A stretch of 64,000 bases of DNA. Source: Hippasteria phrygiana. Lineage: Eukaryota > Echinodermata > Asteroidea > Valvatida > Goniasteridae. The notes under the pieces were generated by a model. The model did not search any database. It was not told where the DNA came from and saw only the letters and a list, made by a program, of their open reading frames with translations. Each line of letters opens with the position of its first letter. Position 1 is the stretch's first letter. The position numbers and the translations under genes are program-made. The stretch covers positions 868,001 through 932,000 of the forward strand of contig JAZGUH010000001.1 of the NCBI GenBank assembly GCA_037893225.1, given 5' to 3'. This document shows, piece by piece, positions 11,140 to 64,000 of this stretch.

Positions 11140-11216
11140 ACCAATTTGCATAGAGCCACATGGTGCCTCTGGTTAAGATCTACATGTACATGTAACTCCA
11201 TCCTCTGTTTACAATT

Positions 11217-22550: not shown

Positions 22551-22559
22551 TTCTTTTTA

Positions 22560-23323: not shown

Positions 23324-23372
23324 TTGGCTGTTTTGGACACTTTTCCAAAACAGCCCTTGTTTTCGTTAAGAT

Positions 23373-23404
<32 letters not shown>

Positions 23405-35006: not shown

Positions 35007-35105
35007 TTGGCTGTTTCGAAAGTTTTTCGAAACAGCCCTTGTTTTCGTTAAGATTTTTTTGGCTGTTTCGAAAGAGTTCGAAACAGCCCTTGTTTTCGTT
35101 AAGAT

Positions 35106-35137
<32 letters not shown>

Positions 35138-35257
35138 TTTTTGGCTGTTTCGGAACTTTTCCGAAACAGCCCTTGTTTTCGTTAAGATTTTTTTTTTTTT
35201 CTTTTTTGGCTGTTTTGGAAACTTTTCCAAAACAGCCCTTGTTTTCGTTAAGATTTT

Positions 35258-36490
35258 TTGGCTGTTTTGGAAACTTTTCCAAAACAGCCCTTGTTTTCGT
35301 TAAGATTTTTTTTTTTTTCTTTTTTTTTTTTTTTTCTTTTTTTTGTTCTTCTTTTTCAGCCAAAATGCCCATAGCATTTGTACACGTTTTCTTTCTTACT
35401 GGCACTTTGGCTACTTTTATGCTGCCGATTGGCTTTAAACTTGGCAGACACTTAGACTAACTGCTCAGAATGTATGCCGAACATTTACGTCATGATGACG
35501 TCATCACGTGATTTTTTATGAATTTTTGAAATTTTGAAATCGTAAAATTCTTTTCAATATATCTAGCGAACAAAACAAGATATTTTCAAAATTCTTTTTG
35601 TTATAGCTTCGGTATGTCTCAAAGATATGCACTAAAAGGGACAAAAATGTGTGATGTCATGATGACGTCATCAAAAATGTGCTTTTTTAAAACACATATA
35701 AGGATAGGTCCGATCGTCATGCAAATTGGTGGGTAGGTAGATACTGTCACTGGGATGCTGAATCCAAAGTGACGTCATGATGACGTCATCACGTGATTTT
35801 TTATGAATTTTTCAAAATTTGAAAATCGTAACATTCTTTTCAATATATCTAGCGAACAAAACAAGATATTTTCAAAATTCTTTTTGTTATAGCTTTGGTA
35901 TGTCTCAAAGATATGCCCTAAAAAGGAAAAAAATGTGTGACGTCATGATGACGTCATCAAAAATGTGCTTTTTAAAAACACATATAAGGATAGGCCCGAT
36001 CGTCATGAAAATTGGTGGGTAGGTAGATACTGCCACCAGCATGCCAAATCTGAAATGACGTCATGATGACGTCATCATGTGATTTGTTATGAATTTTTGA
36101 AATTTTGAAATCGTAAAATTCTTTTAAATATATCTGGCAAACAAAACAAGATATTTTTAAAATTCTTTTTGTTATAGCTTTGGTAGGTCTCAAAGATATG
36201 CCCTAAAAAGGAAAAAAATGTGTGACGTCATGATGACATCATCAAAAATGTGCTTTTTAAAAACACATATAAGGATAGGTCCAATCGTCATGAAAATTGG
36301 TGGGTAGGTAGATACTGTCACTAGCATGCAAAATCTGAAATGATGTCATGATGACGATGTCATGATGACGTAATCGGCATTTTTTTTAATGATTTTTGAA
36401 ATTTTTGAAATTTCATTTTAATCACAAAATTTTACACCAAAAAACAAAACAGCCCTGTGTTTGTCCACAAACACTGTACCAGATGTCTAG
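35258..36490 (+). mobile_element. 1233-bp element, copy A
   Basis: From TTGGCTGTTTTGG to CTAG. The interior has a head and three to four monomers, then a GATGTCATGATGACGATG variant and the 3' hairpin. Copies of the same length lie at 40453, 47781 and 56742. Confidence 0.7.
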
Positions 36491-36516
36491 TTTTTTTTTC
36501 TTTTTTTTTTTTCTTT

Positions 36517-38132
36517 TTGGCTGTTTCGGAAACTTTTCCGAAACAGCCCTTGTTTTCGTTAAGATTTTTTTTTTTGGCTTTTTTTTTTCTTTTTTTTTTT
36601 CTTCTTTTTCAGCCAAATGCCCATTGCATTTGTACACGTTTTCTTTCTTACTGGCACTTTGGCTACTTTTATGGTGCCGATTGGCTTTAAACTTGGCAGG
36701 CACTTAGACCAACTGCTCAGAATGTATGCCGAACATTTACGTCATGATGACGTCATCACGTGATTTTTTATGAATTTTTGAAATTTCAAAATCGTAAAAT
36801 TCTGTTCAATATATCTAGCGAACAAAACAAGATATTTTCAAAATTCTTTTTGTTATAGCTTTGGTATGTCTCAAAGATATGCCCTGAAAGGGAGAAAATG
36901 TGTGACGTCATGATGACATCATCAAAAATGTGCTTTTTTAAAACACATATAAGGATAGGTCCGATCGTCATGAAAATTGGTGGGTAGGTAGATACTGTCA
37001 CTAGGATGCTGAATCCAAAGTGACGTCATGATGACGTCATCACATGATTTTTTATGAATTTTTCAAAATTTTAAAATCGTAACATTCTTTTCAATATATC
37101 TAGCAAACAGAAGAAGATATTTTCAAAATTATTTTTGTTATAGCTTTGGTATGTCTCAAAGATATGCCCTGAAAGGGAGAAAATGTGTGACGTCATGATG
37201 ACATCATCAAAAATGTGCTTTTTTAAAACACATATAAGGATATGTCCGATCGTCATGAAAATTGGTGGGTAGGTAGATAGTGCCACTAGCATGTAAAATC
37301 CAAAGTGACGTCATGATGACGTCATCAGCTGATTTTCTATGACTTTTTAGTTTTATCCCAAATCCCATAGACTTTGTACACGAATTTTGTAAGAGCCACT
37401 TTGGTCACTAAACAACCTCAGATCTTAATCAGGTTTAACTCAAACAGAGACCCTAAGCTAAGAATGTATGCCGAAGAGTGACGTCATGATGACGTCATCA
37501 CTTGTCATGTGACGTCATCTTAAAGGTGCATTTTTCAAGGGCACATATCTAGAGAACCGTAGGTCCGATTGCATTCAAACCTGCTATGGTGGTAGACAAG
37601 TACGTGTTATAGATGAAAATTGAGGTGACGTCATCATGACGTCATCATGACGTCATCATACGATTTTATAGTAATTTTTAAGTTTTTTAACCTTAAAGTT
37701 TCTTAAACCCATATCTCATCACCAGAACATGCTAAATTCAAAATTCTTTTTGTAATAGCTTTGTTAGCTTCTATATTCTTTCACATAAATGAGAAAATGT
37801 GTGACGTCATCATGACGACATCAAAAATATATTTAAAAAAAAACACATATAAGGGTAGGTCCAATCGTCATAAAAATTGGTGGGTATGTAGATAGTGTGC
37901 CACAAGCATGCGGCAGCCGAAGTGACGTCATGATGACGTCATCGGCAAATTTTCTATGATTTTTTTTATTTTGTAAATTTTATGTTCCTCCCAACAACAA
38001 CATCCTAACCCCTCCGTCTTTAACTAACAAACACCTTTTACTATTATAAGCATATTACACATCCAAAATAACAAAACAACCCCGAAACAGCCCTGTGTTT
38101 GTCATAACGTGACAAACACATAGCATGTCTAG
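36517..38132 (+). mobile_element. 1616-bp element, copy A
   Basis: The 5' GGCTGTTTCGG is matched by 3' CCGAAACAGCC and an extended hairpin GTGTTTGTCA/TGACAAACAC, then CTAG. The interior includes a distinct block with TTAATCAGGTTTAACTC and CTCCCAACAACAACATCC. A same-length copy lies at 57980-59595, and most of a third, without a recognisable 5' hairpin, at about 53520-55057. Confidence 0.65.
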
Positions 38133-40452
38133 TTTTTTTTTTTTTTCTTTTTCAGCCAAATGCCCATAGCATTTGTACACGTTTTCTTTCTTACTGGCAC
38201 TTTGGCTACTTTTATGCTGCCGATTGACTTCAAACTTGGCAGACACTTAGACTAACTGCTCAGAATGTATGCCGTACATTTACGTCATGATGACGTCATC
38301 ACGTGATTTTTTATGAATTTTTGAAATTTTAAAATCGTAATATTCTTTTCAATATATCTAGCGAACAAAACAAGATATTTTCAAAATTCTTTTTGTTATA
38401 GCTTTGGTATGTCTCAAAGATATGCACTAAAAGAAAAAAAAATGTGTGATGTCATGATGACGTCATCAAAAATGTGCTTTTTTAAAACACATATAAGGAT
38501 AGGTCCGATCGTCATGAAAATTGGTGGGTAGGTAGATACTGGCACTAGGATGCAAAATCCAAAATGATGTCATGATGACGTCATCACGTGATTTGTTATG
38601 AATTTTTGAAATTTTGAAAATCGTAACATTCTTTTAAATATATCTGGCAAACAAAACAAGATATTTTCAAAATTCTTTTTGTTATAGCTTTGGTAGGTCT
38701 CAAAGATATGCCCTAAAAAGGAAAAAAATGTGTGACGTCATGATGACATCATCAAAAATGTGCTTTTTTAAAACACATATAAGGATAGGTCCGATCGTCA
38801 TGAAAATTGGTGGGTAGGTAGATACTGGCACTAGGATGCAAAATCCAAAGTGACGTCATGATGACGTCATCACGTGATTTGTTATGAATTTTTGAAATTT
38901 TGAAATCGTAACATTCTTTTAAATATATCTCGCAAACAAAACAAGATATTTTCAAAATTCTGTTTGATACAGCTTTTGGTATGTCTCAAAGATATGCCCT
39001 AAAAGGCGAAAATTGTGTGACGTCATAATGACGTCATCAATTGTTTTTCTTTTTACGCATGTAAGGGTCGGTCCGATTAAAAGAATTTATACATTGAATT
39101 TTTCTCCACCTAATTCAACAATTTCGTGATCGTGGCTCACTCAAGTATTAAGAAATAACAGGCATCTGAAAATTGTGACCAAATTCAATATAACACAAAG
39201 GAATTCTGGGAAGGACAGAAACCATGGCTTTCATGTGGCATGCTGTCTATAAAGAGTTGATCTCTAGTCTTTTTTTCAAGTCGTTAGACAAGTCGTAGGC
39301 AGACACTTACACCAACTGCTCAGAATGTGCGCCGAACTTTTACGTCATGATGACGTCATCACATGTCATGTGACGTCATCTTAAAGGTGCATTTTTTGAA
39401 GCCATATATCTACAAAAGTACAAGTCAGATTAAGTTAAAACGTGGTATTTAGTTATGCCAGCATGTGTTAGATGAAACTTTATGTGACGTCATGATGACG
39501 TCATCGGCTAATTTTCTAAAAAAAATTTCATTTTTGAAATTTCATTTAAATCACATAATTTTACACAAAAAAACAAAACAGCCCTGTGTTTGTCCACAAA
39601 CACTGCACCATACATCTAGTTTTTCTTTTTTTTTTTTCTTTTTCAGCCAAATGCCTATACATTTGTACACGTTTTCTTTCTTACCGGCACTTTGGCTACT
39701 TTTATGCTGCCGATTGGCTTTAAACTTGGCAGACACTTAGACTAACTGCTCAGAATGTATGCCGAACATTTACGTCATGATGACGTCATCACGTGATTTT
39801 TTATGAATTTTTGAAATTTGAAAATCGTAAAATTCTTTTCAATATATCTAGCGAACAAAACAAGATATTTTCAAAATTCTTTTTGTTATAGCTTTGGTAT
39901 GTCTCAAAGATATGCCCTAAAAGGGAGAAAATGTGTGACGTCATGATGACATCATCAAAAATGTGCTTTTTTAAAACACATATAAGGATAGGTCCGATCG
40001 TCATGAAAATTGGTGGGTACGTAGATACTGGCACTAGGATGCAAATTCCAAAGTGACGTTATGATGACGTCATCACGTGATTTGTTATGATTTTTTGAAA
40101 TTTTGAAAATCGTAACATTCTTTTAAATATATCTGGCAAACAAAACAAGATATTTTCAAAATTCTTTTTGTTATAGCTTTGGTAGGTCTCAAAGATATGC
40201 CCTAAAAAGGAAAAAAATGTGTGACGTCATGATGACATCATCAAAAATGTGCTTTTTTAAAACACATATAAGGATAGGTCCGATCGTCATGAAAATTGGT
40301 GGGTAGGTAGATAATGGCACTAGGATGCAAAATCCGAAGTGACGTCATGATGACGTCATCACGTGATTTGTTATGAATTTTTGAAATTTTGAAATCGTAA
40401 CATTCTTTTAAATATATCTCGCAAACAAAACAAGATAGTTTCAAAATTCTTT

Positions 40453-41685
40453 TTGGCTGTTTTGGAAACTTTTCCAAAACAGCCCTTGTTTTCGTTAAGA
40501 TTTTTTTTTTTTTCTTTTTTTTTTTTTTTTCTTTTTTTTGTTCTTCTTTTTCAGCCAAAATGCCCATAGCATTTGTACACGTTTTCTTTCTTACTGGCAC
40601 TTTGGCTACTTTTATGCTGCCGATTGGCTTTAAACTTGGCAGACACTTAGACTAACTGCTCAGAATGTATGCCGAACATTTACGTCATGATGACGTCATC
40701 ACGTGATTTTTTATGAATTTTTGAAATTTTGAAATCGTAAAATTCTTTTCAATATATCTAGCGAACAAAACAAGATATTTTCAAAATTCTTTTTGTTATA
40801 GCTTCGGTATGTCTCAAAGATATGCACTAAAAGGGACAAAAATGTGTGATGTCATGATGACGTCATCAAAAATGTGCTTTTTTAAAACACATATAAGGAT
40901 AGGTCCGATCGTCATGCAAATTGGTGGGTAGGTAGATACTGTCACTGGGATGCTGAATCCAAAGTGACGTCATGATGACGTCATCACGTGATTTTTTATG
41001 AATTTTTCAAAATTTGAAAATCGTAACATTCTTTTCAATATATCTAGCGAACAAAACAAGATATTTTCAAAATTCTTTTTGTTATAGCTTTGGTATGTCT
41101 CAAAGATATGCCCTAAAAAGGAAAAAAATGTGTGACGTCATGATGACGTCATCAAAAATGTGCTTTTTAAAAACACATATAAGGATAGGCCCGATCGTCA
41201 TGAAAATTGGTGGGTAGGTAGATACTGCCACCAGCATGCCAAATCTGAAATGACGTCATGATGACGTCATCATGTGATTTGTTATGAATTTTTGAAATTT
41301 TGAAATCGTAAAATTCTTTTAAATATATCTGGCAAACAAAACAAGATATTTTTAAAATTCTTTTTGTTATAGCTTTGGTAGGTCTCAAAGATATGCCCTA
41401 AAAAGGAAAAAAATGTGTGACGTCATGATGACATCATCAAAAATGTGCTTTTTAAAAACACATATAAGGATAGGTCCGATCGTCATGAAAATTGGTGGGT
41501 AGGTAGATACTGTCACTAGCATGCAAAATCTGAAATGATGTCATGATGACGATGTCATGATGACGTAATCGGCATTTTTTTTAATGATTTTTGAAATTTT
41601 TGAAATTTCATTTTAATCACAAAATTTTACACCAAAAAACAAAACAGCCCTGTGTTTGTCCACAAACACTGTACCAGATGTCTAG
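40453..41685 (+). mobile_element. 1233-bp element, copy B
   Basis: Same end points and length as 35258-36490, with a few base differences (for example GGTCCGATCG here against GGTCCAATCG). After its CTAG the sequence continues as a poly-T tract with CCTTTTCAGAC, the inside of another copy. Confidence 0.65.
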
Positions 41686-41819
41686 TTTTTTTTTTTTTTC
41701 CTTTTCAGACTTTTTGCCCATAGCATTTGTGCACGTTTTCTTTCTTACCGGCACTTTGGCTACTTTGGTACACCCGATTGCCTCTAAACTTGGCAGACAC
41801 TTAGACCAACTGCTCAGAA

Positions 41820-43200
41820 TGTATGCCGAACATTTACGTCATGATGACGTCATCACGTGATTTTTTATGAATTTTTGAAATTTGAAAATCGTAATATTCT
41901 ATTTAATATATCTAGCGAACAAAACAAGATATTTTCAAAATTCCTTTTGTTATAGCTTTGGTATGTCTCAAAGATATGCACTAAAAGAAAAAAAAATGTG
42001 TGATGTCATGATGACGTCATCAAAAATGTGCTTTTTTAAAACACATATAAGGATAGGTCCGATCGTCATGAAAATTGGTGGGTAGGTAGATACTGGCACT
42101 AGGATGCAAAATCCAAAATGACGTCATGATGACGTCATCACGTGATTTGTTATGAATTTTTGAAATTTTGAAAATCGTAACATTCTTTTAAATATATCTG
42201 GCAAACAAAACAAGATATTTTCAAAATTCTTTTTGTTATAGCTTTGGTAGGTCTCAAAGATATGCCCTAAAAAGGAAAAAAATGTGTGACGTCATGATGA
42301 CATCATCAAAAATGTCCTTTTTTAAAACACATATAAGGATAGGTCCGATCGTCATGAAAATTGGTGGGTAGGTAGATACTGCCACCAGCATGCAGAAGCC
42401 GAAGTGACGTCATGATGACGTCATCACGTGATTTGTTATGAATTTTTGAAATTTTGAAAATCGTAACATTCTTTTAAATATATCTCGCAAACAAAACAAG
42501 ATATTTTCAAAATTCTTTTTGATACAGCTTTTGGTATGTCTCAAAGATATGCCCTTATAGCTTTGGTATGTCTCAAAGATATGCACTAAAAGAAAAAAAA
42601 ATGTGTGATGTCATGATGACGTCATCAAAAATGTGCTTTTTTAAAACACATATAAGGATAGGTCCGATCGTCATGAAAATTGGTGGGTAGGTAGATACTG
42701 GCACTAGGATTCAAAATCCAAAATGACGTCATGATGACGTCATCACGTGATTTGTTATGAATTTTTGAAATTTTGAAAATCGTAACATTCTTTTAAATAT
42801 ATCTGGCAAACAAAACAAGATATTTTCAAAATTCTTTTTGTTATAGCTTTGGTAGGTCTCAAAGATATGCCCTAAAAAGGAAAAAAATGTGTGACGTCAT
42901 GATGACATCATCAAAAATGTCCTTTTTTAAAACACATATAAGGATAGGTCCGATCGTCATGAAAATTGGTGGGTAGGTAGATACTGCCACCAGCATGCAG
43001 AAGCCGAAGTGACGTCATGATGACGTCATCACGTGATTTGTTATGAATTTTTGAAATTTTGAAAATCGTAACATTCTTTTAAATATATCTCGCAAACAAA
43101 ACAAGATATTTTCAAAATTCTTTTTGATACAGCTTTTGGTATGTCTCAAAGATATGCCCTAAAAGGCGAAAATTGTGTGACGTCATAATGACGTCATCAA
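41820..43200 (+). repeat. 286-bp monomer array with a 602-bp duplication
   Basis: Consecutive monomers share the CRE pair, E-box and CGATCGTCATGAAAATTGG. A segment of about two monomers is repeated at an offset of roughly 600 bp, with a junction at 42555 where GATATGCCC runs straight into TTATAGCTTTGG. Confidence 0.8.
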
Positions 43201-43673
43201 TTTTTTTTGTTAACGCATGTAAGGGTCGGTCTGATTAAAAAAATTTATACATTGAATTTTTCTCCACCTAATTCAACAATTTCGTGATCGTGGCTCACTC
43301 AAGTATTAAGAAATAACAGGCATCTGAAAATTGTGACCAAATTCAATATAACACAAAGGAATTCTGGGAAGGACAGAAACCATGGCTTTCATGTGGCATG
43401 CTGTCTATAAAGAGTTGATCTCTAGTCTTTTTTTCAAGTCGTTAGACAAGTCGTAGGCAGATACTTACACCAACTGCTCAGAATGTGCGCCGAACTTTTA
43501 GGTCATGATGACGTCATCACATGTCACGTGACGTCATCTTAAAGGGGCATTTTTGGAAACCATATATCTACAAAAGTACAAGTCACATCAAGTTAAAACG
43601 TGGTATTTAGTTATGCCAGCATATGAAAATGTATGTGACGTCATGGTGACGTCATGATGACGTCATCGGCTAA

Positions 43674-43722
43674 TTGGCTGTTTTGGAAACTTTTCCAAAA
43701 CAGCCCTTGTTTTCGTTAAGAT

Positions 43723-43771
<49 letters not shown>

Positions 43772-45698
43772 CCTTTTCAGACTTTTTGCCCATAGCATTT
43801 GTGCACGTTTTCTTTCTTACCGGCACTTTGGCTACTTTGGTACACCCGATTGCCTCTAAACTTGGCAGACACTTAGACCAACTGCTCAGAATGTATGCCG
43901 AACATTTACGTCATGATGACGTCATCACGTGATTTTTTATGAATTTTTGAAATTTGAAAATCGTAAAATTCTTTTCAATATATCTAGCGAACAAAACAAG
44001 ATATTTTCAAAATTCTTTTTGTTATAGCTTTGGTAGGTCTCAAAGATATGCCCTAAAAAGGAAAAAAGTGTGTGACGTCATGATGACATCATCAAAAATG
44101 TGCTTTTTTAAAACACATATAAGAATAGGTCCGATCGTCATGAAAATTGGTGGGTAGGTAGATACTGGCACTAGGATGCAAAATCCAAAGTGACGTTTTT
44201 TTTTTTTTTTTTTTCCTTTTCAGACTTTTTGCCCATAGCATTTGTGCACGTTTTCTTTCTTACCGGCACTTTGGCTACTTTGGTACACCCGATTGCCTCT
44301 AAACTTGGCAGACACTTAGACCAACTGCTCAGAATGTATGCCGAACATTTACGTCATGATGACGTCATCACGTGATTTTTTATGAATTTTTGAAATTTGA
44401 AAATCGTAAAATTCTTTTCAATATATCTAGCGAACAAAACAAGATATTTTCAAAATTCTTTTTGTTATAGCTTTGGTAGGTCTCAAAGATATGCCCTAAA
44501 AAGGAAAAAAGTGTGTGACGTCATGATGACATCATCAAAAATGTGCTTTTTTAAAACACATATAAGAATAGGTCCGATCGTCATGAAAATTGGTGGGTAG
44601 GTAGATACTGGCACTAGGATGCAAAATCCAAAGTGACGTCATGATGACGTCATCACGTGATTTGTTATGAATTTGTGAAATTTTGAAAATCGTAACATTC
44701 TTTTCAATATATCTGGCAAACAAAACAAGATATTTTCAAAATTCTTTTTGTTATAGCTTTGGTAGGTCTCAAAGATATGCCGTAAAAAGGAAAAAAATGT
44801 GTGACGTCATGATGACATCATCAAAAATGTGCTTTTTTAAAACACATATAAGGATAGGTCCGATCGTCATGAAAATTGGTGGGTAGGTAGATACTGGCAC
44901 TAGGATGCAAAATCCAAAGTGACGTCATGATGACGTCATCACGTGATTTGTTATGAATTTTTGAAATTTTGAAATCGTAACATTCTTTTAAATATATCTC
45001 GCAAACAAAACAAGAGATTTTCAAAATTCTTTTTGATACAGCTTTTGGTATGTCTCAAAGATATGCCCTAAAAGGCGAAAATTGTGTGACGTCATAATGA
45101 CATCATCAATTTTTTTCTTTTTACGCATGTAAGGGTCGGTCCGATTAAAAAAATGTATACATTGAATTTTTCTCTACCTAATTCAACAATTTCGTGATCG
45201 TGGCTCACTCAAGTATTAAGAAATAACAGGCATCTGAAAATTGTGACCAAATTCAATATAACACAAAGGAATTCTGGGAAGGACAGAAACCATGGCTTTC
45301 ATGTGGCATGCTGTCTATAAAGAGTTGATCTCTAGTCTTTTTTTCAAGTCGTTAGACAAGTCGAAGGCAGACACTTACACCAACTGCTCAGAATGTGCGC
45401 CGAACTTTTACGTCATGATGACGTCATCACATGTCACGTGACGTCATCTTAAAGGGGCATTTTTGGAAACCATATATCTACAAAAGTACAAGTCACATTA
45501 AGTTAAAACGTGGTATTTAGTTATGCCAGCATGTGTTAGATGAAAATGTATGTGACGTCATGGTGACGTCATGATGACGTCATCGGCTAATTTTCTATGA
45601 TTTTTTTCATTTTTGAAATTTCATTTAAATCACATAATTTTACACAAAAAAACAAAACAGCCCTGTGTTTGTCCACAAACACTGCACCAGATGTCTAG
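43674..45698 (+). mobile_element. element inserted in a sister's 3' region
   Basis: The left flank ATCGGCTAA and the right flank TTTTCTATGATTTTTTTC join into the 3' segment present in other copies (for example 45587-45620). The insertion starts TTGGCTG and ends CTAG. It contains a 443-bp internal duplication (about 43750-44190 and 44195-44640). Confidence 0.65.
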
Positions 45699-46499
45699 TT
45701 TTCTATGATTTTTTTCATTTTTGAAATTTCATTTAAATCACATAATTTTACACACAAAAACAAAACAGCCCTGTGTTTGTCCACAAACACTGCACCATAC
45801 ATCTAGTTTTTTTTTTTTTTCCTTTTCAGACTTTTTGCCCATAGCATTTGTGCACGTTTTCTTTCTTACCGGCACTTTGGCTACTTTGGTACACCCGATT
45901 GCCTCTAAACTTGGCAGACACTTAGACCAACTGCTCAGAATGTATGCCGAACATTTACGTCATGATGACATCATCACGTGATTTTTTATGAATTTTTGAA
46001 ATTTCAAAATCGTAAAATTCTTTTCAATATATCTAGCGAACAAAACAAGATATTTTCAAAATTCTTTTTGTTATAGCTTTGGTATGTCTCAAAGATATGC
46101 CTTAAAAGGGAGAACATGTGTGACGTCATGATGACATCATCAAAAATGTGCTTTTTTAAAACACATATAAGGATATGTCCGATCGTCATGAAAATTGGTG
46201 GGTAGGTAGATACTGGCACTAGGATGCAAATTCCAAAGTGACGTCATGATGACGTCATCACGTGATTTTTTATGAATTTTTGAAATTTTGAAAATCGTAA
46301 ATTCTTTTAAATATATCTGGCAAACAAAACAAGATATTTTCAAAATTCTTTTTGTTATAGCTTTGGTAGGTCTCAAAGATATGCCCTAAAAAGGAGTAAA
46401 AATGTGTGACGTCATGATGACATCATCAAAAATGTGCTTTTTTAAAACACATATAAGGATAGGTCCGATCGTCGTGAAAATTGGTGGGTAGGTTGATAC

Positions 46500-49070
46500 T
46501 GGCACTAGGATGCAAAATCCAAAGTGACGTCATGATGACGTCATCACGTAATTTGTTATGAATTTTTGAAATTTTGAAAATCGTAACATTCTTTTAAATA
46601 TATCTGGCAAACAAAACAAGATATTTTCAAAATTCTTTTTGTTATAGCTTTGGTAGGTCTCAAAGATATGCCCTAAAAAGGAAAAAAATGTGTGACGTCA
46701 TGATGACATCATCAAAAATGTGCTTTTTTAAAACACATATAAGGATAGGTCCGATCGTCATGAAAATTGGTGGGTAGGTAGATACTGGTACTAGGATGCA
46801 AAATCCAAAGTGACGTTATAATGACGTCATCATGTGATTTGTTATGAATTTTTGAAATTTTGAAATCGTAACATTCTTTTAAATATATCTCGCAAACAAA
46901 ACAAGAGATTTTCAAAATTCTTTTTGATACAGCTTTTGGTATGTCTCAAAGATATGCCCTAAAAGGCGAAAATTGTGTGACGTCATAATGACGTCATCAA
47001 ATTTTTTTTTTTTACGCATGTAAGGGTCGTTCCGATTAAAAATTTATACATTGAATTTTTCTCTACCTAATTCAACAATTTCGTGATCGTGGCTCACTCA
47101 AGTATTAAGAAATAACAGGCATCTAAAAAATTGTGACCAAATTCAATATAACACAAAGGAATTCTGGGAAGGACAGAAACCATGGCTTTCATGTGGCATG
47201 CTGTCTATAAAGAGTTGATCTCTAGTCTTTTTTTCAAGTCGTTAGACAAGTCGTAGGCAGATACTTACACCAACTGCTCAGAATGTGCGCCGAACTTTTA
47301 GGTCATGATGACGTCATCACATGTCACGTGACGTCATCTTAAAGGGGCATTTTTGGAAACCATATATCTATAAAAGTACAAGTCACATTAAGTTAAAACG
47401 TGGTATTTAGTTATGCCAGCATGTGTTAGATGAAAATGTATGTGACGTCATGATGACGTCATCGGCTAATTTTCTATGATTTTTTTCATTTTTGAAATTT
47501 CATTTAAATCACATAATTTTACACAAAAAAACAAAACAGCCCTGTGTTTGTCCACAAACACTGCACCAGATGTCTAGTTGTTATAGCTTGGGTAGGTCTC
47601 AAAGATATGCCCTAAAAGGGAAACAAATGTGTGACGTCATGATGACGTCATCCAAAATGTGCTTTTTAAAAACACATAAGGATAGGTCCGATCGTCATGA
47701 AAAGCAGTGGGTAGGTAGATACTGTCACTAGCATGCAAAATCTGAAATGATGTCATGATGACGTCATCGTCAATTTTTTTTTGGCTGTTTTGGAAACTTT
47801 TCCAAAACAGCCCTTGTTTTCGTTAAGATTTTTTTTTTTTTCTTTTTTTTTTTTTTTTCTTTTTTTTGTTCTTCTTTTTCAGCCAAAATGCCCATAGCAT
47901 TTGTACACGTTTTCTTTCTTACTGGCACTTTGGCTACTTTTATGGTGCCGATTGGCTTTAAACTTGGCAGACACTTAGACTAACTGCTCAGAATGTATGC
48001 CGAACATTTACGTCATGATGACGTCATCACGTGATTTTTTATGAATTTTTGAAATTTTGAAATCGTAAAATTCTTTTCAATATATCTAGCGAACAAAACA
48101 AGATATTTTCAAAATTCTTTTTGTTATAGCTTTGGTATGTCTCAAAGATATGCACTAAAAGGGACAAAAATGTGTGATGTCATGATGACGTCATCAAAAA
48201 TGTGCTTTTTTAAAACACATATAAGGATAGGTCCGATCGTCATGCAAATTGGTGGGTAGGTAGATACTGTCACTGGGATGCTGAATCCAAAGTGACGTCA
48301 TGATGACGTCATCACGTGATTTTTTATGAATTTTTCAAAATTTGAAAATCGTAACATTCTTTTCAATATATCTAGCGAACAAAACAAGATATTTTCAAAA
48401 TTCTTTTTGTTATAGCTTTGGTATGTCTCAAAGATATGCCCTAAAAAGGAAAAAAATGTGTGACGTCATGATGACGTCATCAAAAATGTGCTTTTTAAAA
48501 ACACATATAAGGATAGGCCCGATCGTCATGAAAATTGGTGGGTAGGTAGATACTGCCACCAGCATGCCAAATCTGAAATGACGTCATGATGACGTCATCA
48601 TGTGATTTGTTATGAATTTTTGAAATTTTGAAATCGTAAAATTCTTTTAAATATATCTGGCAAACAAAACAAGATATTTTTAAAATTCTTTTTGTTATAG
48701 CTTTGGTAGGTCTCAAAGATATGCCCTAAAAAGGAAAAAAATGTGTGACGTCATGATGACATCATCAAAAATGTGCTTTTTAAAAACACATATAAGGATA
48801 GGTCCGATCGTCATGAAAATTGGTGGGTAGGTAGATACTGTCACTAGCATGCAAAATCTGAAATGATGTCATGATGACGATGTCATGATGACGTAATCGG
48901 CATTTTTTTTAATGATTTTTGAAATTTTTGAAATTTCATTTTAATCACAAAATTTTACACCAAAAAACAAAACAGCCCTGTGTTTGTCCACAAACACTGT
49001 ACCAGATGTCTAGTTTTTTTGGCTGTTTCGGAAACTTTTCCGAAACAGCCCTTGTTTTCGTTAAGATTTT
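46500..49070 (+). repeat. 2.57-kb segment duplicated at 55461-58031
   Basis: Distinctive features recur at a constant 8961-bp offset: the ACGTAATTTG variant (46547/55508), the CTAGTTGTTATAG junction (47574/56535), and the 1233-bp copy (47781/56742). Copies look nearly identical. Confidence 0.8.
47781..49013 (+). mobile_element. 1233-bp element, copy C
   Basis: Same ends and length as the other copies. The left flank is ATCGTCAATTTTTTT; a comparable uninterrupted region at 53385 reads CGTCAATTTTTTTTATG. Another 5' hairpin (TTTCGG type) follows five T's after its CTAG. Confidence 0.65.
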
Positions 49071-49549: not shown

Positions 49550-50700
49550 GTAGGTAGATACTGGCACTAGGATGCAAAATCCAAAATGACGTCATGATGA
49601 CGTCATCACGTGATTTGTTATGAATTTTTGAAATTTTGAAAATCGTAACATTCTTTTAAATATATCTGGCAAACAAAACAAGATATTTTCAAAATTCTTT
49701 TTGTTATAGCTTTGGTAGGTCTCAAAGATATGCCCTAAAAAGGAAAAAAATGTGTGACGTCATGATGACATCATCAAAAATGTCCTTTTTTAAAACACAT
49801 ATAAGGATAGGTCCGATCGTCATGAAAATTGGTGGGTAGGTAGATACTGCCACCAGCATGCAGAAGCCGAAGTGACGTCATGATGACGTCATCACGTGAT
49901 TTTTTATGAATTTTTGAAATTTTGAAATCGTAAAAGTCTTTTAAATATATCTGGCAAACAAAACAAGATATTTTCAAAATTATTTTTGTTATAGCTTTGG
50001 TAGGTCTCAAAGATATGCCCTAAAAAGGAAAAAAATGTGTGACGTCATGATGACATCATCAAAAATGTGCTTTTTTAAAACACATATAAGGATAGGTCCG
50101 ATCGTCATGAAAATTGGTGGGTAGGTAGATACTGGCACTAGGATGCAAAATCCAAAATGACGTCATGATGACGTCATCACGTGATTTGTTATGAATTTTT
50201 GAAATTTTGAAAATCGTAACATTCTTTTAAATATATCTGGCAAACAAAACAAGATATTTTCAAAATTCTTTTTGTTATAGCTTTGGTAGGTCTCAAAGAT
50301 ATGCCCTAAAAAGGAAAAAAATGTGTGACGTCATGATGACATCATCAAAAATGTCCTTTTTTAAAACACATATAAGGATAGGTCCGATCGTCATGAAAAT
50401 TGGTGGGTAGGTAGATACTGCCACCAGCATGCAGAAGCCGAAGTGACGTCATGATGACGTCATCACGTGATTTTTTATGAATTTTTGAAATTTTGAAATC
50501 GTAAAAGTCTTTTAAATATATCTGGCAAACAAAACAAGATATTTTCAAAATTATTTTTGTTATAGCTTTGGTAGGTCTCAAAGATATGCCCTAAAAAGGA
50601 AAAAAATGTGTGACGTCATGATGACATCATCAAAAATGTGCTTTTTTTAAACACATATAAGGATAGGTCCAATCGTCATGAAAATTGGTGGGTAGGTAGA
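49550..50700 (+). repeat. 571-bp tandem duplication of two monomers
   Basis: The segment from GGCACTAGGATGC at 49563 recurs at 50134 without visible change over two monomers. This is a recent unequal-exchange product. Confidence 0.8.
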
Positions 50701-53519
50701 TACTGTCACTAGCATGCAAAATCTGAAATGATGTCATGATGACGTCATCGGGAATTTTTTTTATGATTTTTGAAATTTTTGAAATTTCATTTTAATCACA
50801 ATTTTACACAAAAAAACAAAACAGCCCTGTGTTTGTCCACAAACACTGTACCAGATGTCTAGTTTCTTTTTTTTTTTCTTTTTCAGCCAAATGCCCATAG
50901 CATTTGTACACGTTTTCTTTCTTACCGGCACTTTGGCTACTTTTATGCTGCCGATTGGCTTTAAACTTGGCAGACACTTCGACTAACTGCTCAGAATGTA
51001 TGCCGAACATTTACGTCATGATGACGTCATCACGTGATTTTTTATGAATTTTTGAAATTTCAAAATCGTAAAATTCTTTTCAATATATCTAGCGAACAAA
51101 ACAAGATATTTTCGAAATTCTTTTTGTTATAGCTTTGGTATGTCTCAAAGATATGCCCTAAAAAGCGAAAATTGTGTGACGTCATGATGACGTCATCAAA
51201 AATGTTTTTTTTTTTAACGCATGTAAGGGTCAATCCGATTACAAAAATGTATATATTGAATTTTCCTCTCCCTAATTCCAAAATTTCATGATCGTGGCTC
51301 ACTCAAGTAAGAAATAACAGCCATTTCAAAATTTAGACCAAATTCAATATAACACAAAGGAATTCTGGGAAGGGCAGATAACCATGGCTTAAATGTGCAT
51401 GCTGTTTATAAAAAGGTTGATTTGTAGTCTTTGTTCAAGTCGCTGAATTTTAAAATTGTGTAAATCGTAACATTCTTTTCAATATATCTAGCGAACAAAA
51501 CAAGAAATTTTCTAAATTCTTTTTGTTATAGCTTTGGTATGTCTCAAAGATATGCCCTAAAAAGCGAAAATTGTGTGACGTCATGATGACGTCATGAAAA
51601 AATTCTTTTTTTCAAGTCGCTAGAATATTGCCCATAGCATTTGTAAACGTTTTCTTTCTTACCGGCCACTTTACCTAATTTTAAACTTGGCAGACACTTA
51701 CCCCAACTGCTCACAATGTGTGCCGAACTTTTACGTCATAATGACGTCATCACATGTCACGTGACGTCATCTTAAAGGGGCATTTTTCTAAGCCATATAT
51801 CTACAAAAGTACAAGTTCGATTAAGTTAAAATGTAATATCTAGGTATTCCAGTAGTTTTATAAATGAAAATTGACATGACGTTATGATGACGTCATCACA
51901 TGTGACGTCATCTTAAAGGGGCAGTTTTTGAAGGCGCATATCTACAGAAGTACATGTCCGATTAAGTTTAAAAGTAATATCTAGGTAGCCCAGTAGGTTT
52001 ATAGATGAAAATTGACATGACATGATGATGACGTCATTACATGTCACGTGACGTCATCTTAAAGGGGCAGTTTTTGAAGCCATATAATATAAACAAAAGT
52101 ACAAGTCCGATTAAGTTGAAAAGTTATATCTAGGTAGGTCAGCAAGTTTATAGATGAAAATTTATGTGACGTTATGATGACGTCATCACATGTTACTACT
52201 ACAAACAACTTTAATTAATTTCAAAATTAACATAGAAAACTGGCAGCAGCGCGATTGGTTGACAAACTTAAATTATTGTATTCACATTTCACATCCAAAC
52301 TAAAAAAACAAAAACGAAACAGCCCTGTGTTTGTCCACAAACACCAACCTCATGCCTCTAGTTTTTTTTTTGTGCTTCTTTTTCAGTCAAATGCCCATAG
52401 CATTTGTACACGTTTTCTTTCTTACTGGCACTTTGGCTACTTTTATGCTGCCGATTGGCTTTAAACTTGGCAGACACTTAGACTAACTGCTCAGAATGTA
52501 TGCCGCACATTTACGTCATGATGACATCATCACGTGATTTTTTATGAATTTTTGAAATTTGAAAATCGTAAAATTCTTTTCAATATATCTAGCGAACAAA
52601 ACAAGATATTTTCAAAATTCTTTTTGTTACAGCTTTGGTAGGTCTCAAAGATATGCCCTAAAAAAGAAAAAAATGTGTGACGTCATGATGACATCATCAA
52701 AAATGTGCTTTTTTAAAACACATATAAGAATAGGTCCGATCGTCATGAAAATTGGTGGGTAGGTAGATACTGGCACTAGGATGCAAAATCCAAAGTGACG
52801 TCATGATGACGTCATCACGTGATTTGTTATGAATTTTTGACATTTTGAAAATCGTAACATTCTTTTAAATATATCTGGCAAACAAAACAAGATATTTTCA
52901 AAATTCTTTTTGTTATAGCTTTGGTAGGTCTCAAAGATATGCCCTAAAAAGGAAACAAATGTGTGACGTCATGATGACATCATCAAAAATGTGCTTTTTT
53001 AAAACACATATAAGGATAGGTCCGATCGTCATGAAAATTGGTGGGTAGGTAGATACTGGCACTAGGATGCAAAATCCAAAGTGACGTCATGATGACGTCA
53101 TCACGTGATTTGTTATGAATTTTTGAAATTTTGAAATCGTAACATTCTTTTAAATATATCTCGCAAACAAAACAAGATAGTTTCAAAATTCTTTTTGTTA
53201 TAGCTTGGGTAGGTCTCAAAGATATGCCCTAAAAGGGAAACAAATGTGTGACGTCATGATGACGTCATCCAAAATGTGCTTTTTAAAAACACATAAGGAT
53301 AGGTCCGATCGTCATGAAAAGCAGTGGGTAGGTAGATACTGTCACTAGCATGCAAAATCTGAAATGATGTCATGATGACGTCATCGTCAATTTTTTTTAT
53401 GATTTTTGAAATTTTTGAAAGTTCATTTTAATCACAATTTTACACAAAAAAACAAAACAGCCCTGTGTTTGTCCACAAACACTGCACCATACATCTAGTT
53501 TTCTTTTTTTTTTCTTTTT

Positions 53520-55507
53520 TTTTTTCTTCTTTTTCAGCCAAATGCCCATTGCATTTGTACACGTTTTCTTTCTTACTGGCACTTTGGCTACTTTTATGGT
53601 GCCGATTGGCTTTAAACTTGGCAGGCACTTAGACCAACTGCTCAGAATGTATGCCGAACATTTACGTCATGATGACGTCATCACGTGATTTTTTATGAAT
53701 TTTTGAAATTTCAAAATCGTAAAATTCTGTTCAATATATCTAGCGAACAAAACAAGATATTTTCAAAATTCTTTTTGTTATAGCTTTGGTATGTCTCAAA
53801 GATATGCCCTGAAAGGGAGAAAATGTGTGACGTCATGATGACATCATCAAAAATGTGCTTTTTTAAAACACATATAAGGATAGGTCCGATCGTCATGAAA
53901 ATTGGTGGGTAGGTAGATACTGTCACTAGGATGCTGAATCCAAAGTGACGTCATGATGACGTCATCACATGATTTTTTATGAATTTTTCAAAATTTTAAA
54001 ATCGTAACATTCTTTTCAATATATCTAGCAAACAGAAGAAGATATTTTCAAAATTATTTTTGTTATAGCTTTGGTATGTCTCAAAGATATGCCCTGAAAG
54101 GGAGAAAATGTGTGACGTCATGATGACATCATCAAAAATGTGCTTTTTTAAAACACATATAAGGATATGTCCGATCGTCATGAAAATTGGTGGGTAGGTA
54201 GATAGTGCCACTAGCATGTAAAATCCAAAGTGACGTCATGATGACGTCATCAGCTGATTTTCTATGACTTTTTAGTTTTATCCCAAATCCCATAGACTTT
54301 GTACACGAATTTTGTAAGAGCCACTTTGGTCACTAAACAACCTCAGATCTTAATCAGGTTTAACTCAAACAGAGACCCTAAGCTAAGAATGTATGCCGAA
54401 GAGTGACGTCATGATGACGTCATCACTTGTCATGTGACGTCATCTTAAAGGTGCATTTTTCAAGGGCACATATCTAGAGAACCGTAGGTCCGATTGCATT
54501 CAAACCTGCTATGGTGGTAGACAAGTACGTGTTATAGATGAAAATTGAGGTGACGTCATCATGACGTCATCATGACGTCATCATACGATTTTATAGTAAT
54601 TTTTAAGTTTTTTAACCTTAAAGTTTCTTAAACCCATATCTCATCACCAGAACATGCTAAATTCAAAATTCTTTTTGTAATAGCTTTGTTAGCTTCTATA
54701 TTCTTTCACATAAATGAGAAAATGTGTGACGTCATCATGACGACATCAAAAATATATTTAAAAAAAAACACATATAAGGGTAGGTCCAATCGTCATAAAA
54801 ATTGGTGGGTATGTAGATAGTGTGCCACAAGCATGCGGCAGCCGAAGTGACGTCATGATGACGTCATCGGCAAATTTTCTATGATTTTTTTTATTTTGTA
54901 AATTTTATGTTCCTCCCAACAACAACATCCTAACCCCTCCGTCTTTAACTAACAAACACCTTTTACTATTATAAGCATATTACACATCCAAAATAACAAA
55001 ACAACCCCGAAACAGCCCTGTGTTTGTCATAACGTGACAAACACATAGCATGTCTAGTTTTTTTTTCTTCTTTTTCAGCCAAATGCCCATAGCATTTGTA
55101 CACGTTTCTTTCTTACTGGCACTTTGGCTACTTTTATGGTGCCGATTGGCTTTAAACTTGGCAGACACTTAGACCAACTGCTCAGAATGTATGCCGAACA
55201 TTTTCGTCATGATGACGTCATCACGTGATTTTTTATGAATTTTTGAAATTTCAAAATCGTAAAATTCTTTTCAATATTTCTGGCGAACAAAACAAGATAT
55301 TTTCAAAATTCTTTTTGTTATAGCTTTGGTATGTCTCAAAGATATCCCCTAAAAAGGAAAAAATGTGTGACGTCATGATGACATCATCAAAAATGTGCTT
55401 TTTTAAAACACATATAAGGATAGGTCCGATCGTCATGAAAATTGGTGGGTAGGTAGATACTGGCACTAGGATGCAAAATCCAAAGTGACGTCATGATGAC
55501 GTCATCA
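53520..55507 (+). repeat. 1.99-kb segment duplicated at 58058-60045
   Basis: The offset is 4538 bp. Both copies carry the 1616-bp element body, the CTCCCAACAACAACATCC block and the following monomer. The duplication stops where ACGTAATTTG (55508) becomes ACGTGATTTG (60046). Confidence 0.8.
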
Positions 55508-57974: not shown

Positions 57975-57979
57975 TTTTT

Positions 57980-59595
57980 TTGGCTGTTTCGGAAACTTTT
58001 CCGAAACAGCCCTTGTTTTCGTTAAGATTTTTTTTTTTTTCTTTTTTTTTTCTTTTTTTTTTTCTTCTTTTTCAGCCAAATGCCCATTGCATTTGTACAC
58101 GTTTTCTTTCTTACTGGCACTTTGGCTACTTTTATGGTGCCGATTGGCTTTAAACTTGGCAGGCACTTAGACCAACTGCTCAGAATGTATGCCGAACATT
58201 TACGTCATGATGACGTCATCACGTGATTTTTTATGAATTTTTGAAATTTCAAAATCGTAAAATTCTGTTCAATATATCTAGCGAACAAAACAAGATATTT
58301 TCAAAATTCTTTTTGTTATAGCTTTGGTATGTCTCAAAGATATGCCCTGAAAGGGAGAAAATGTGTGACGTCATGATGACATCATCAAAAATGTGCTTTT
58401 TTAAAACACATATAAGGATAGGTCCGATCGTCATGAAAATTGGTGGGTAGGTAGATACTGTCACTAGGATGCTGAATCCAAAGTGACGTCATGATGACGT
58501 CATCACATGATTTTTTATGAATTTTTCAAAATTTTAAAATCGTAACATTCTTTTCAATATATCTAGCAAACAGAAGAAGATATTTTCAAAATTATTTTTG
58601 TTATAGCTTTGGTATGTCTCAAAGATATGCCCTGAAAGGGAGAAAATGTGTGACGTCATGATGACATCATCAAAAATGTGCTTTTTTAAAACACATATAA
58701 GGATATGTCCGATCGTCATGAAAATTGGTGGGTAGGTAGATAGTGCCACTAGCATGTAAAATCCAAAGTGACGTCATGATGACGTCATCAGCTGATTTTC
58801 TATGACTTTTTAGTTTTATCCCAAATCCCATAGACTTTGTACACGAATTTTGTAAGAGCCACTTTGGTCACTAAACAACCTCAGATCTTAATCAGGTTTA
58901 ACTCAAACAGAGACCCTAAGCTAAGAATGTATGCCGAAGAGTGACGTCATGATGACGTCATCACTTGTCATGTGACGTCATCTTAAAGGTGCATTTTTCA
59001 AGGGCACATATCTAGAGAACCGTAGGTCCGATTGCATTCAAACCTGCTATGGTGGTAGACAAGTACGTGTTATAGATGAAAATTGAGGTGACGTCATCAT
59101 GACGTCATCATGACGTCATCATACGATTTTATAGTAATTTTTAAGTTTTTTAACCTTAAAGTTTCTTAAACCCATATCTCATCACCAGAACATGCTAAAT
59201 TCAAAATTCTTTTTGTAATAGCTTTGTTAGCTTCTATATTCTTTCACATAAATGAGAAAATGTGTGACGTCATCATGACGACATCAAAAATATATTTAAA
59301 AAAAAACACATATAAGGGTAGGTCCAATCGTCATAAAAATTGGTGGGTATGTAGATAGTGTGCCACAAGCATGCGGCAGCCGAAGTGACGTCATGATGAC
59401 GTCATCGGCAAATTTTCTATGATTTTTTTTATTTTGTAAATTTTATGTTCCTCCCAACAACAACATCCTAACCCCTCCGTCTTTAACTAACAAACACCTT
59501 TTACTATTATAAGCATATTACACATCCAAAATAACAAAACAACCCCGAAACAGCCCTGTGTTTGTCATAACGTGACAAACACATAGCATGTCTAG
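57980..59595 (+). mobile_element. 1616-bp element, copy B
   Basis: GGCTGTTTCGG at the 5' end and CCGAAACAGCC with CTAG at the 3' end. Same length as 36517-38132. It follows five T's after the CTAG of the previous element. Confidence 0.65.
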
Positions 59596-60804
59596 TTTTT
59601 TTTTCTTCTTTTTCAGCCAAATGCCCATAGCATTTGTACACGTTTCTTTCTTACTGGCACTTTGGCTACTTTTATGGTGCCGATTGGCTTTAAACTTGGC
59701 AGACACTTAGACCAACTGCTCAGAATGTATGCCGAACATTTTCGTCATGATGACGTCATCACGTGATTTTTTATGAATTTTTGAAATTTCAAAATCGTAA
59801 AATTCTTTTCAATATTTCTGGCGAACAAAACAAGATATTTTCAAAATTCTTTTTGTTATAGCTTTGGTATGTCTCAAAGATATCCCCTAAAAAGGAAAAA
59901 ATGTGTGACGTCATGATGACATCATCAAAAATGTGCTTTTTTAAAACACATATAAGGATAGGTCCGATCGTCATGAAAATTGGTGGGTAGGTAGATACTG
60001 GCACTAGGATGCAAAATCCAAAGTGACGTCATGATGACGTCATCACGTGATTTGTTATGAATTTTTGAAATTTTGAAAATCGTAACATTCTTTTAAATAT
60101 ATCTGGCAAACAAAACAAGATATTTTCAAAATTCTTTTTGTTATAGCTTTGGTAGGTCTCAAAGATATGCCCTAAAAAGGAAAAAAATGTGTGACGTCAT
60201 GATGACATCATCAAAAATGTGCTTTTTTAAAACACATATAAGGATAGGTCCGATCGTCATGAAAATTGGTGGGTAGGTAGATACTGGCACTAGGATGCAA
60301 AATCCAAAGTTACGTCATGACGACGTCATCACGTGATTTGTTATGAATTTTTGAAATTTTGAAATCGTAACATTCTTTTAAATATATCTCGCAAACAAAA
60401 CAAGATAGTTTCAAAATTCTTTTTGTTATAGCTTTGGTAGGTCTCAAAGATATGCCCTAAAAGGGAAACAAATATGTGACGTCATGATGACGTCATCCAA
60501 AATGTGCTTTTTTAAACACATATAAGGATAGGTCCGATCGTCATGAAACGTAGTGGGTAGGTAGATACTGTCACTAGCATGCAAAATCTGAAATGATGTC
60601 ATGATGACGTCATCGTCAATTTTTTTTATGATTTTTGAAATTTTTGAAATTTCATTTTAATCACAATTTTACACAAAAAAACAAAACAGCCCTGTGTTTG
60701 TCCACAAACACTGTACCAGATGTCTAGTTTTTTTTTTTTTGGCTGTTTCGAAATTTTTTCGAAACAGCCCTTGTTTTCGTTAAGATTTTTTTTTTTTTTT
60801 TTTT

Positions 60805-60852
60805 TTGGCTGTTTCGAAAGTTTTTCGAAACAGCCCTTGTTTTCGTTAAGAT

Positions 60853-60898
<46 letters not shown>

Positions 60899-63646
60899 TC
60901 TTTTTCAGACTTTTTGCCCATAGCATTTGTACACGTTTTCTTTCTACCAGGCACTTTTGCTACTTTGATGCAGCCGATTGCCTTTAAACTTAACAGACAC
61001 TTAGACCAACTGCTCAGAATGCATGCCGAACTTTTACGTCATGATGACGTCATCACGTGATTTTTTATGAATTTTTGAAATTTGAAAATCGTAACATTCA
61101 TTAAATTATATCTAGCGAACAAAACAAGATATTTTCAAAATTCTTTTTGTTATAGCTTTGGTATGTCTCAAAGATATGCCCTAAAAAGCGAAAATTGTTT
61201 GACGTCATGATGACGTCATCAAAAATATGTTTTTTTGTAAACGCATGTAAGGGTCAATTCGATTACAAAAATGTATACATTGAATTTTCCTGTACCCAAT
61301 TCCAAAATTTCATGATCGTGGCTCACTCAAGTAAGAAATGACAGCCATTTCAAAATTTAGACCAAATTCAATATAACACAAAGGAATTCTGGGACGGGCA
61401 GATAACCATGGCTATTATGTGCTTGCTGTTTATAAAAGGGGTTGATTTCTAGTCTTTTTTCAAGTCGCTGAATTTTTGAAGTATTAAAATCGTAACATTC
61501 TTTTCAATATATCTAGCGAACAAAACAAGATATTTTAAAAATTATTTTTGTTATAGCTTTGGTATGTCTCAAAGATATGCCCTAAAAGGCGAAAATTGTG
61601 TGACGTCATGATGACGTCATCAACAATTCTTTTTTTTTTTTTACGCATGTAAGGGTCAATCCGATTACAAAAATAAATACATTGAATTTTTCTGTACGTA
61701 ATTCCAAAATTTCGTGATCGTGGCTCACTCAAGTAAGAAATAGGAGCCATTTCAAAATTTAGACCAAATTCAATATAACACAAAGGAATTCTGGGACGGG
61801 CAGATAACCATGGCTATTATGTGCTTGCTGTTTATAAAAGGGGTTGATTTCTAGTCTTTTTTCAAGTCGCTGAATTTTTGAAGTATTAAAATCGTAACAT
61901 TCTTTTCAATATATCTAGCGAACAAAACAAGATATTTTAAAAATTATTTTTGTTATAGCTTTGGTATGTCTCAAAGATATGCCCTAAAAGGCGAAAATTG
62001 TGTGACGTCATGATGACGTCATCAACAATTCTTTTTTTTTTTTTACGCATGTAAGGGTCAATCCGATTACAAAAATAAATACATTGAATTTTTCTGTACG
62101 TAATTCCAAAATTTCGTGATCGTGGCTCACTCAAGTAAGAAATAGGAGCCATTTCAAAATTTAGACCAAATTCAATATAACACAAAGGAATTCTGGGACG
62201 GGCAGATAACCATGGCTATTATGTGCTTGATGTTTATAAAAGGGGTTGATTTCTAGTCTTTTTTCAAGTCGCTGAATTTTTGAAGTATTAAAATCGTAAC
62301 ATTCTTTTCAATATATCTAGCGAACAAAACAAGATATTTTCAAAATTCTTTTTGTTATAGCTTTGGTATGTCTCAAAGATATGCCCTAAAAGGCGAAAAT
62401 TGTGTGACGTCATGATGACGTCATCAACAATTCTTTTTTTTTAAACGCATGTAAGGGTCAATCCGATTACAAAAATGTATACATTGAATTTTTCTGTACG
62501 TAATTCCAAAATTTCATGGTCGTGGCTCACTCAAGTAAGAAATAGGAACCATTTCAAAATTTAGACCAAATTCAATATAACACAAAGGAATTCTGGGAAG
62601 GGCAGATAACCATGGCTTAAATGAGCAAGCTGTTTATAAAAAGGGTTGATTTGTAGTCTTTTTTCAAGTCGCTGAATTTTAAATTTTTGGAATCGTAACA
62701 TTCTTTTCAATATATCTAGCGAACAAAACAAGATATTTTCAAAATTCTTTTTGTTATAGCTTTGGTATGTCTCAAAGATATGCCCTAAAAAGCGAAAATT
62801 GTGTGACGTCATGATGACGTCATAAAAAAAAATCTTTTTTCAAGTCGCTAGAATATTGCCCATAGCATTTGTAAACTTTTTCTTTCTTACCGGCCACTTT
62901 GGATACTTTTAAACTTAGCAGACACTTACTCCAACTGCTCACAATGTGTGCCGAACATTTACGTCATGATGACATCATCACATGTCACGTGACGTAAAGG
63001 GGCATTTTTCGAAACCATATATCTACAAAAGTACAAGTCCGATTAAGTTGGAACGTAATATCTAGGTATGCCACCGGGTGTTATAGATGAACATTGACAT
63101 GACGTTATGACCAAGTCATAACATGTCACGTGGTGTCATCTTAAAGGGGCACTCGCTAGATTATTGCCCATAGCATTTGTAAACATTTTCTTTCCTCCCG
63201 GCCAGTTTGGCTACTTTTAAACTTGGCAGACACTTACCCCAACTGCTCAGAATGTGTGCCTAACTTTTACGTCATGATGACGTCATCACATGTCACGTGA
63301 CGTCATCTTAAAGGGGCATTTTTCGAAGCCATATATCTACAAATGTACAAGTCCGATTCAGTTGAAACACACCATTTAGGTATGCCACCCGGTGTCATAG
63401 ATGAAAATTGACATGACGTTATGTGATGTCATCTTAAAGGGGCATTCGCTAGGCTATTTCCCATAGCATTTGTACACGATTCCTTTTTTTAAACCAATCC
63501 TTCACACATCCAATAACAACATCTTCATCCCTCCGTCATTGTTAACTAACAAACAACTTTAAATATTGCATACACATTTGACATCCAAACTAACAATAAA
63601 AAAATTCGAAACAGCCCTGTGTTTGTCCACAAACACTTGCCTCTAG
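60805..63646 (+). mobile_element. element of the TTTCGAAA subfamily
   Basis: The 5' hairpin GGCTGTTTCGAAAG is matched at the 3' side by TTCGAAACAGCCC, a GTGTTTGT/ACAAACAC hairpin and CTAG at 63643. A further hairpin of the same type lies just left at 60739. After 63646 a poly-T tract and TTTTTCAGAC resume, so this copy is itself nested in another that runs off the window. Confidence 0.6.
61434..62237 (+). repeat. 402-bp tandem duplication around D modules
   Basis: Two neighbouring blocks at an offset of 402 bp look almost identical (GGTTGATTTCTAGTC to TTTATAAAAGG). A third, more diverged block follows at 62240-62640. Confidence 0.8.
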
Positions 63647-64000
63647 TTTTTTTTTTTTTTTCTTCTTTTTCAGACTTTTGACCATAGCATTTGTACACGT
63701 TTTCTTTCTGCCAGGCACTTTGGCTACTTTTATGCAGCCGATTGCTTTTAAACTTAACAGACACTTAGACCAACTGCTCAGGATGCATGCCGATCTTTTA
63801 CGTCATGATGACGTCATCACGTGATTTTTTATGAATTTTTGAATTTTGAAAATCGTAACATTCATTAAATTATATCTAGCGAACAAAACAAGATATTTTC
63901 AAAATTCTTTTTCTTATAGCTTTGGTATGTCTCAAAGATATGCCCTAAATTGCAAAAATTGTGTGACGTCATGATGACGTCATCAAAAATGTGTTTTTTT

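Follow-up and report, generated by a model that had tools for sequence, protein, structure and literature searches.

Copies of a high-copy mobile element in the sea star Hippasteria phrygiana very probably nest in one another, each new copy inserting into a T tract carried by a resident copy. The window analysed here is a stretch of 64,000 nucleotides of assembly GCA_037893225.1 (contig JAZGUH010000001.1; C1:868001-932000), and its right part is a pile of such elements. An earlier note on this DNA had proposed that new copies land in the T tract just behind the 5' hairpin of older ones, and the proposal is supported by type-matched pairing of element ends, by twin elements with an empty and a filled tract, by junction counts and by a count of zero for inverted insertions. 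Nested insertion is thus observed in one orientation, with matching end types, in one empty/filled pair and on a genome-wide scale. Segmental duplication and insertion into element bodies are also at work. Judged by their anatomy, the elements are HINEs, which are non-autonomous Helentrons.

Nested elements in the window

The pile begins with a stack of five hairpins separated by T tracts (35009..35305, types G, G, G, A, and A; all pile features are on the forward strand). The hairpins, counted from GGCTG, start at 35009, 35061, 35143, 35208, and 35260; the earlier note had listed the same five in a row, with coordinates that include two T's ahead of GGCTG. The fourth hairpin belongs to an outer A-type element (35208..39619), the tract of which is in three pieces, split by a complete A-type HINE (35260..36490) and a complete G-type HINE (36519..38132). 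The types read A[A][G]A, and the bracket that had been read as 35206-39619 containing 35258-36490 and 36517-38132 is therefore borne out. A terminal CTAG directly before T's and the head of another copy, the second pattern that had been pointed out, is found at 10 sites in the window block and 14 sites in the whole pile, plus one at 21344. The pile extends to window coordinate 81,278 and is ~46 kb long in total.

One element exists in twin copies, with and without an insert in the tract. The G-type element at 49021..55057 has a filled tract, with T11 to the left and T4 C T10 C T11 to the right of a 4.4-kb insert (49078..53498), which has one hairpin and three 3' ends. Its G twin at 57982..59595 has an empty tract, T13 C T10 C T11. 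The left flank (1290 bp) and the right flank (1519 bp) are both 100% identical between the filled and the empty form.

Two inserts of the pile sit in bodies, outside tracts. A composite insert (40455..47577) sits in an older body at CAAAATTCTTTTT / GTTATAGC; it comprises a single hairpin and three bodies with their 3' ends, as well as the insert 43676-45698. The A-type insert at 43676..45698 sits in a body at GGCTAATT / TTCTATGA. At each of the two sites there are two T's more than in the body copies. The A-type insert has a second body head near 44219 (44150-44270), where a T run joins the head to GTGACG; this may be a duplication inside the element or a nested copy that has collapsed.

The inner A-type HINE at 35260..36490 has three near-copies elsewhere in the pile, at 99.76–99.92% identity. 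One complete A-type HINE (47783..49013) has a twin at 56744-57974 that is 100% identical and lies within a segmental duplication. Altogether, four 1.23-kb A copies are 99.76–100% identical, two of them via duplication. Such near-identity fits recent activity, although the order of insertion is not given by identity alone. At the right end of the window (60741..64000), the pile contains two G hairpins and long-bodied G elements.

Structure and classification

From 5' to 3', an element is composed of a hairpin (GGCTGTTTYG...CRAAACAGCC), CTTGTTTTCGTTAAGA, a T tract, a body head, a core, and a 3' end. The tract lies right behind the hairpin, is ~30–60 nt long, and is interrupted by single C's or other bases; the body head follows directly and starts CAGCC or CAGAC. 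The core contains 285–286-bp tandem repeats (21504-22545 and 23553-24423 in the window). In the 3' end, the hairpin arm is repeated and followed by a stem-loop and the terminal CTAG. The ends fall into the types A (CAAAACAGCC), G (CGAAACAGCC), and S (CGGAAAAGCC).

We assign the elements to HINEs because their anatomy is that described in PMC4067079 and PMC7492417. The hairpin arms CAAAACAGCC, CGAAACAGCC, and CGGAAAAGCC recur in the 3' ends of the matching type, as do the palindromic 5' subterminal repeats of HINEs and Helentrons, which return inverted near the 3' end; the two types agree in 26 of 27 uninterrupted A/G elements. Typical A and G hairpins have 13-bp stems when folded as DNA (z about -5.8). 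The expected 3' stem-loop is present, being weak in the common type (z -1.9) and strong in the CATAACG type (z -5.9) when two 3' ends are folded as DNA. The 285–286-bp repeats and the T tract correspond to the central tandem repeats and the left-module microsatellite of HINEs. The target is T-rich, with T's on both sides and no other target duplication: the filled tract of the twin pair and the two body inserts each exceed the empty form by two T's, which may equally come from the element or from the target. In two sampled regions (L019 and L022) the right side of the element has one T. The 5' end TTGGCTG and the T-rich target are not those of a canonical Helitron. Canonical Helitrons use an A-T target. 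Their 5' end starts with TC, as stated in the available part of PMC5148889.

Pairing of ends and genome-wide junctions

Beyond the window, the analysis covered 20 stretches of 10 kb around the first-listed hairpins on contigs C1–C8, plus 29 kb to the right of the window. Pairing was done in 16 regions (17 strand rows), where hairpins number 78 and 3' ends 79. Without crossing, at most 58 pairs can be formed when types must match, compared with 61 when types are ignored. Shuffling the 3' types inside each row lowers the typed figure to 49.6 on average (sd 2.1, maximum 56), and none of the 300 shuffles attains 58. Among the regions, L014 and L023 are small islands of the order A[G]A with non-family flanks, and L019, L020, L022, and L026 have single elements. 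The stems differ in 22 of 37 hairpin pairs, and 31 stack signatures are distinct.

The pattern recurs across the genome (944 Mb, 1285 contigs). The counts are of exact matches, such that diverged copies are missed, and duplicated copies are counted more than once in the junction totals. There are 5236 5' hairpins and 5853 3' ends. Left junctions (hairpin-T-hairpin) number 2345, compared with 0 for a reversed-pattern control; right junctions (CTAG-T-body) number 2389, compared with 7 for the control, with heads containing CCTTTTCAG missed. The left and right counts are near-equal, as nesting requires, although the two patterns differ in strictness and the closeness is not to be pressed. An uninterrupted hairpin-tract-body order is found 1347 times. 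Accordingly, 2345 of the 3692 tracts classed by the two patterns (64%) are filled, or 45% relative to all 5236 hairpins. For the 100 hairpins that come first in the list, 46 of 99 neighbours are no more than 110 bases away, compared with 0.06 expected if hairpins were scattered. S-type heads stand in A/G tracts at 272 sites, indicating that landing is not confined to one end type; bodies are hit too.

Several observations weigh against self-nesting or limit how much it explains. The pile is unbalanced, with 16 five-prime and 24 three-prime ends and a depth down to -8 (15 and 17 in the window block alone), indicating that duplication plus hairpin loss or composite movement also shaped it. Either loss of hairpins from stacks or composite movement is needed. 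A pure bracket parse of the window's pile fails to close, and the pile contains internal duplications of 2.5–3.8 kb at 98.0–99.6% identity, as well as one of 3.7 kb at 95%. The earlier suggestion that self-targeting explains the 29-kb block therefore holds for the nesting, and not for the full size, given the duplication and too few hairpins for the 3' ends. The single type-discordant pair of the 27 is formed by the hairpin and the first 3' end of the insert at 49078..53498. Typed pairing falls below untyped pairing in two rows, L027 (2 of 3) and L028_30 (6 of 8), and the L021 island has one hairpin and three 3' ends. In 15 of the 37 hairpin pairs the stems are identical and could come from slippage or duplication; slippage as the source of stacks is ruled out only for the 22 pairs with differing stems. 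The regions L012 and L013 were considered as a second clean empty/filled pair. Their upstream flanks are 100% identical over 1328 bp, and the filled tracts show a two-T surplus over the empty T13 C T10 C T5. However, the bodies are only 93.7% alike and the right flank of L012 is not found in the 10 kb of L013, so the pair is downgraded to suggestive. Inverted insertions number 0 genome-wide, for the pattern and its reverse complement, with both pattern halves each common and an equally strict forward control lacking. Finally, an identical hairpin is not required for landing, because S-type heads stand in A/G tracts.

Alternative explanations

It is unlikely, although worth weighing, that any long T run is favoured and that family tracts are hit merely as long T runs where insertions survive. 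A T-rich target is known for HINEs (PMC4067079, available part), and S-type elements use A/G tracts, as expected in that case. The surroundings of the sampled hairpins argue otherwise. When 76 hairpins are sorted by neighbour, 38 follow a hairpin tail, 17 follow a CTAG, and 21 follow neither; of these 21, two are in family bodies for certain and two more probably. At least 10 T's directly precede 29 of the hairpins; 25 of these come after a hairpin tail, 4 after a CTAG, and 0 belong to the group with neither. The T runs upstream of the 21 hairpins in that group are 2–9 long, mostly 2. None of the 29 is thus in a non-family T run, despite ~100 such runs per Mb, a figure estimated from 8 T or A runs of at least 10 outside elements in 77 kb, which is a small sample of DNA near piles. 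On this small background sample, family tracts appear to be favoured beyond their T content. Hairpins outside tracts are commoner in the A type (15 of 24) than in the G type (6 of 52).

Rolling-circle errors could also build stacks, if read-through of 3' ends or concatemers from circular intermediates were inserted as ready-made composites. The units with one hairpin and three 3' ends at 40455-47577, at 49078-53498, and in L021 are of the kind expected, 704 CTAG-T-hairpin junctions are found genome-wide, and multiple 5' ends have been proposed to arise by such movement in Fusarium (PMC5148889, available part). Concatemers should give CTAG-hairpin junctions, yet CTAG-body junctions are commoner (2389 versus 704). 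In addition, end types nest, an empty twin exists, and 31 of 37 stack signatures are distinct. We therefore regard errors of this kind as an improbable main source of the stacks.

Equally doubtful as the main source is recombination and slippage among T tracts, hairpins, and core repeats. The duplications within the pile and the identical stems in 15 of 37 hairpin pairs are in its favour, as is the even spacing of some junctions: ~11.07 kb on C33 and 10.7–10.8 kb on C60. On C33, family junctions lie at 65845, 76916, and 87987, exactly 11,071 bases apart, and on C60 at 3581242, 3591985, 3602710, and 3613543; both series are probably tandem duplications of larger units. On the other hand, the stems differ in the remaining 22 pairs, and the small A[G]A islands in L014 and L023 have non-family flanks. 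An assembly artefact is very improbable: the DNA is highly repetitive and contains identical blocks, but many contigs show the pattern, thousands of times in all, and it obeys rules of orientation and type.

Model and relation to known systems

Self-nesting in the carried tract very probably proceeds as follows. The insertion target is a T-T step, and each copy brings a landing pad of fixed orientation, the T-rich tract behind its hairpin. A new copy, presumably as a single-stranded intermediate, joins the T strand of the resident's tract and splits the resident into a hairpin with T's on the left and T's with a body on the right; the newcomer's own tract is then the next target. Repeated rounds stack 5' hairpins at the left and leave runs of CTAG-T-body at the right, on one strand, with types matching as brackets. 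Proximity to a hairpin, beyond T's alone, presumably draws insertions. A further step is plausible, though somewhat less likely than not: a transposition protein bound to the resident hairpin would guide new copies, always in the same orientation, into the T strand beside it, such that each insertion creates the next target and piles grow by preferential attachment.

HINEs and DINE-1-like elements share with the present family palindromic subterminal repeats, a 3' stem-loop, tandem repeats, a microsatellite, a T-rich target, and variable terminal T's (PMC4067079). The authors suggest that piles of neighbouring elements are possible for Helentrons too, and the available text describes neither insertion into the own microsatellite nor bracket-like piles. 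Cg_HINE of the Pacific oyster (PMC7492417, available part) has a similar left module (subterminal repeat, inverted repeat, and microsatellite), a satellite-like core, T-rich sites, and no target duplication, but its microsatellite consists mostly of 4-nt units instead of a T tract. The FoHeli Helitrons of Fusarium (PMC5148889) have end hairpins, self-insertion, and copies in which a single 3' end goes with several 5' ends; the cases are few, the target is another one, and the available text has no carried landing tract. Piles of rolling-circle elements also include shuffled oyster Helitron loci and truncated plant Helitron arrays, and dimers of transposable elements are ascribed to target preference (review PMC12628747); typed nesting in one carried tract is absent from the available part of that review.

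Within the open-licence literature, seen as partial texts, we recognised no case of self-targeting of a carried T tract, which is weak evidence of absence. In Lepidoptera, Helitron-like elements reportedly disrupt (GAAA)n microsatellites, to go by the title of a 2010 report by Coates. Copies are inserted in copies in the Zepp retrotransposon of Chlorella as well, by another mechanism, that of a retrotransposon. The elements are of a known kind; what is new, as far as our literature search reaches, is how extensive and how ordered their nesting in a self-carried target is. The piles constitute a natural record of Helentron target choice, with many ordered and oriented insertions in one defined tract, and make attraction of the transposition protein to hairpins testable. 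They suggest a way for a high-copy element to build satellite-like blocks, with its own copies serving as targets.

Probable coding partners in the genome assembly

The HINEs are probably moved by Rep-helicase-endonuclease proteins of the same genome. A whole-genome search for Helitron_like_N (Rep) gives 150 scored matches among 164 candidates, most of them in frames of thousands of residues, and many Rep frames are ~3,000–3,600 residues long from stop to stop. Two pieces of 1.2 kaa (L035 and L036) contain Helitron_like_N and DUF6570 in a domain scan. On contig C44, L036 has no stop, and in the adjoining L040 the frame continues for 727 residues and encodes PIF1 and Exo_endo_phos. A fusion of Rep-helicase to endonuclease defines Helentrons, and in this copy it is read from Rep to stop, as in an autonomous Helentron. 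The frame (L036 1-3594 and L040 1-2181) is very long and has short peptide repeats upstream of Rep, in addition to DUF6570.

Contigs up to C237 have 64 Rep matches. For 13 of these, a family hairpin is listed no more than 30 kb away, and each of the 13 runs antisense to its nearest hairpin. Widening the distance to 60 kb gives 22 antisense matches and 2 that are not antisense; for the other 40 of the 64, no family hairpin is that near among the matches listed. A coding copy with the same ends as the HINEs may lie on C2, where a body head (1899293) and the G-type 3' end that comes next (1923926) enclose a Rep match (1913277); the interval measures 24.7 kb and has no A/G hairpin or 3' end inside, among the matches listed. 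The 3' end of the C44 coding copy predicted from the C2 spacing is not found in L041, a point against the overall account.

Other features of the window

To the left of the pile, a nested pair at 16913..23123 (+) consists of an A-type HINE with a 4.4-kb S-type element inside its tract (16985-21344), A[S]A. A single A-type HINE follows at 23326..24537 (+). Arrays of 16-bp minisatellites with related units lie at 14140-14606, 25276-25680, and 25813-26116 (19 to 29.5 copies, 89–100% matches). Reading frames are open through these arrays, and at 25119-25725 this holds for both strands. A further array of a 16-bp repeat, at 15549-15707, is perfect (9.9 copies, 100% matches). An open frame of 265 aa at 11196-11993 may resemble a secretory kinase-like gene.

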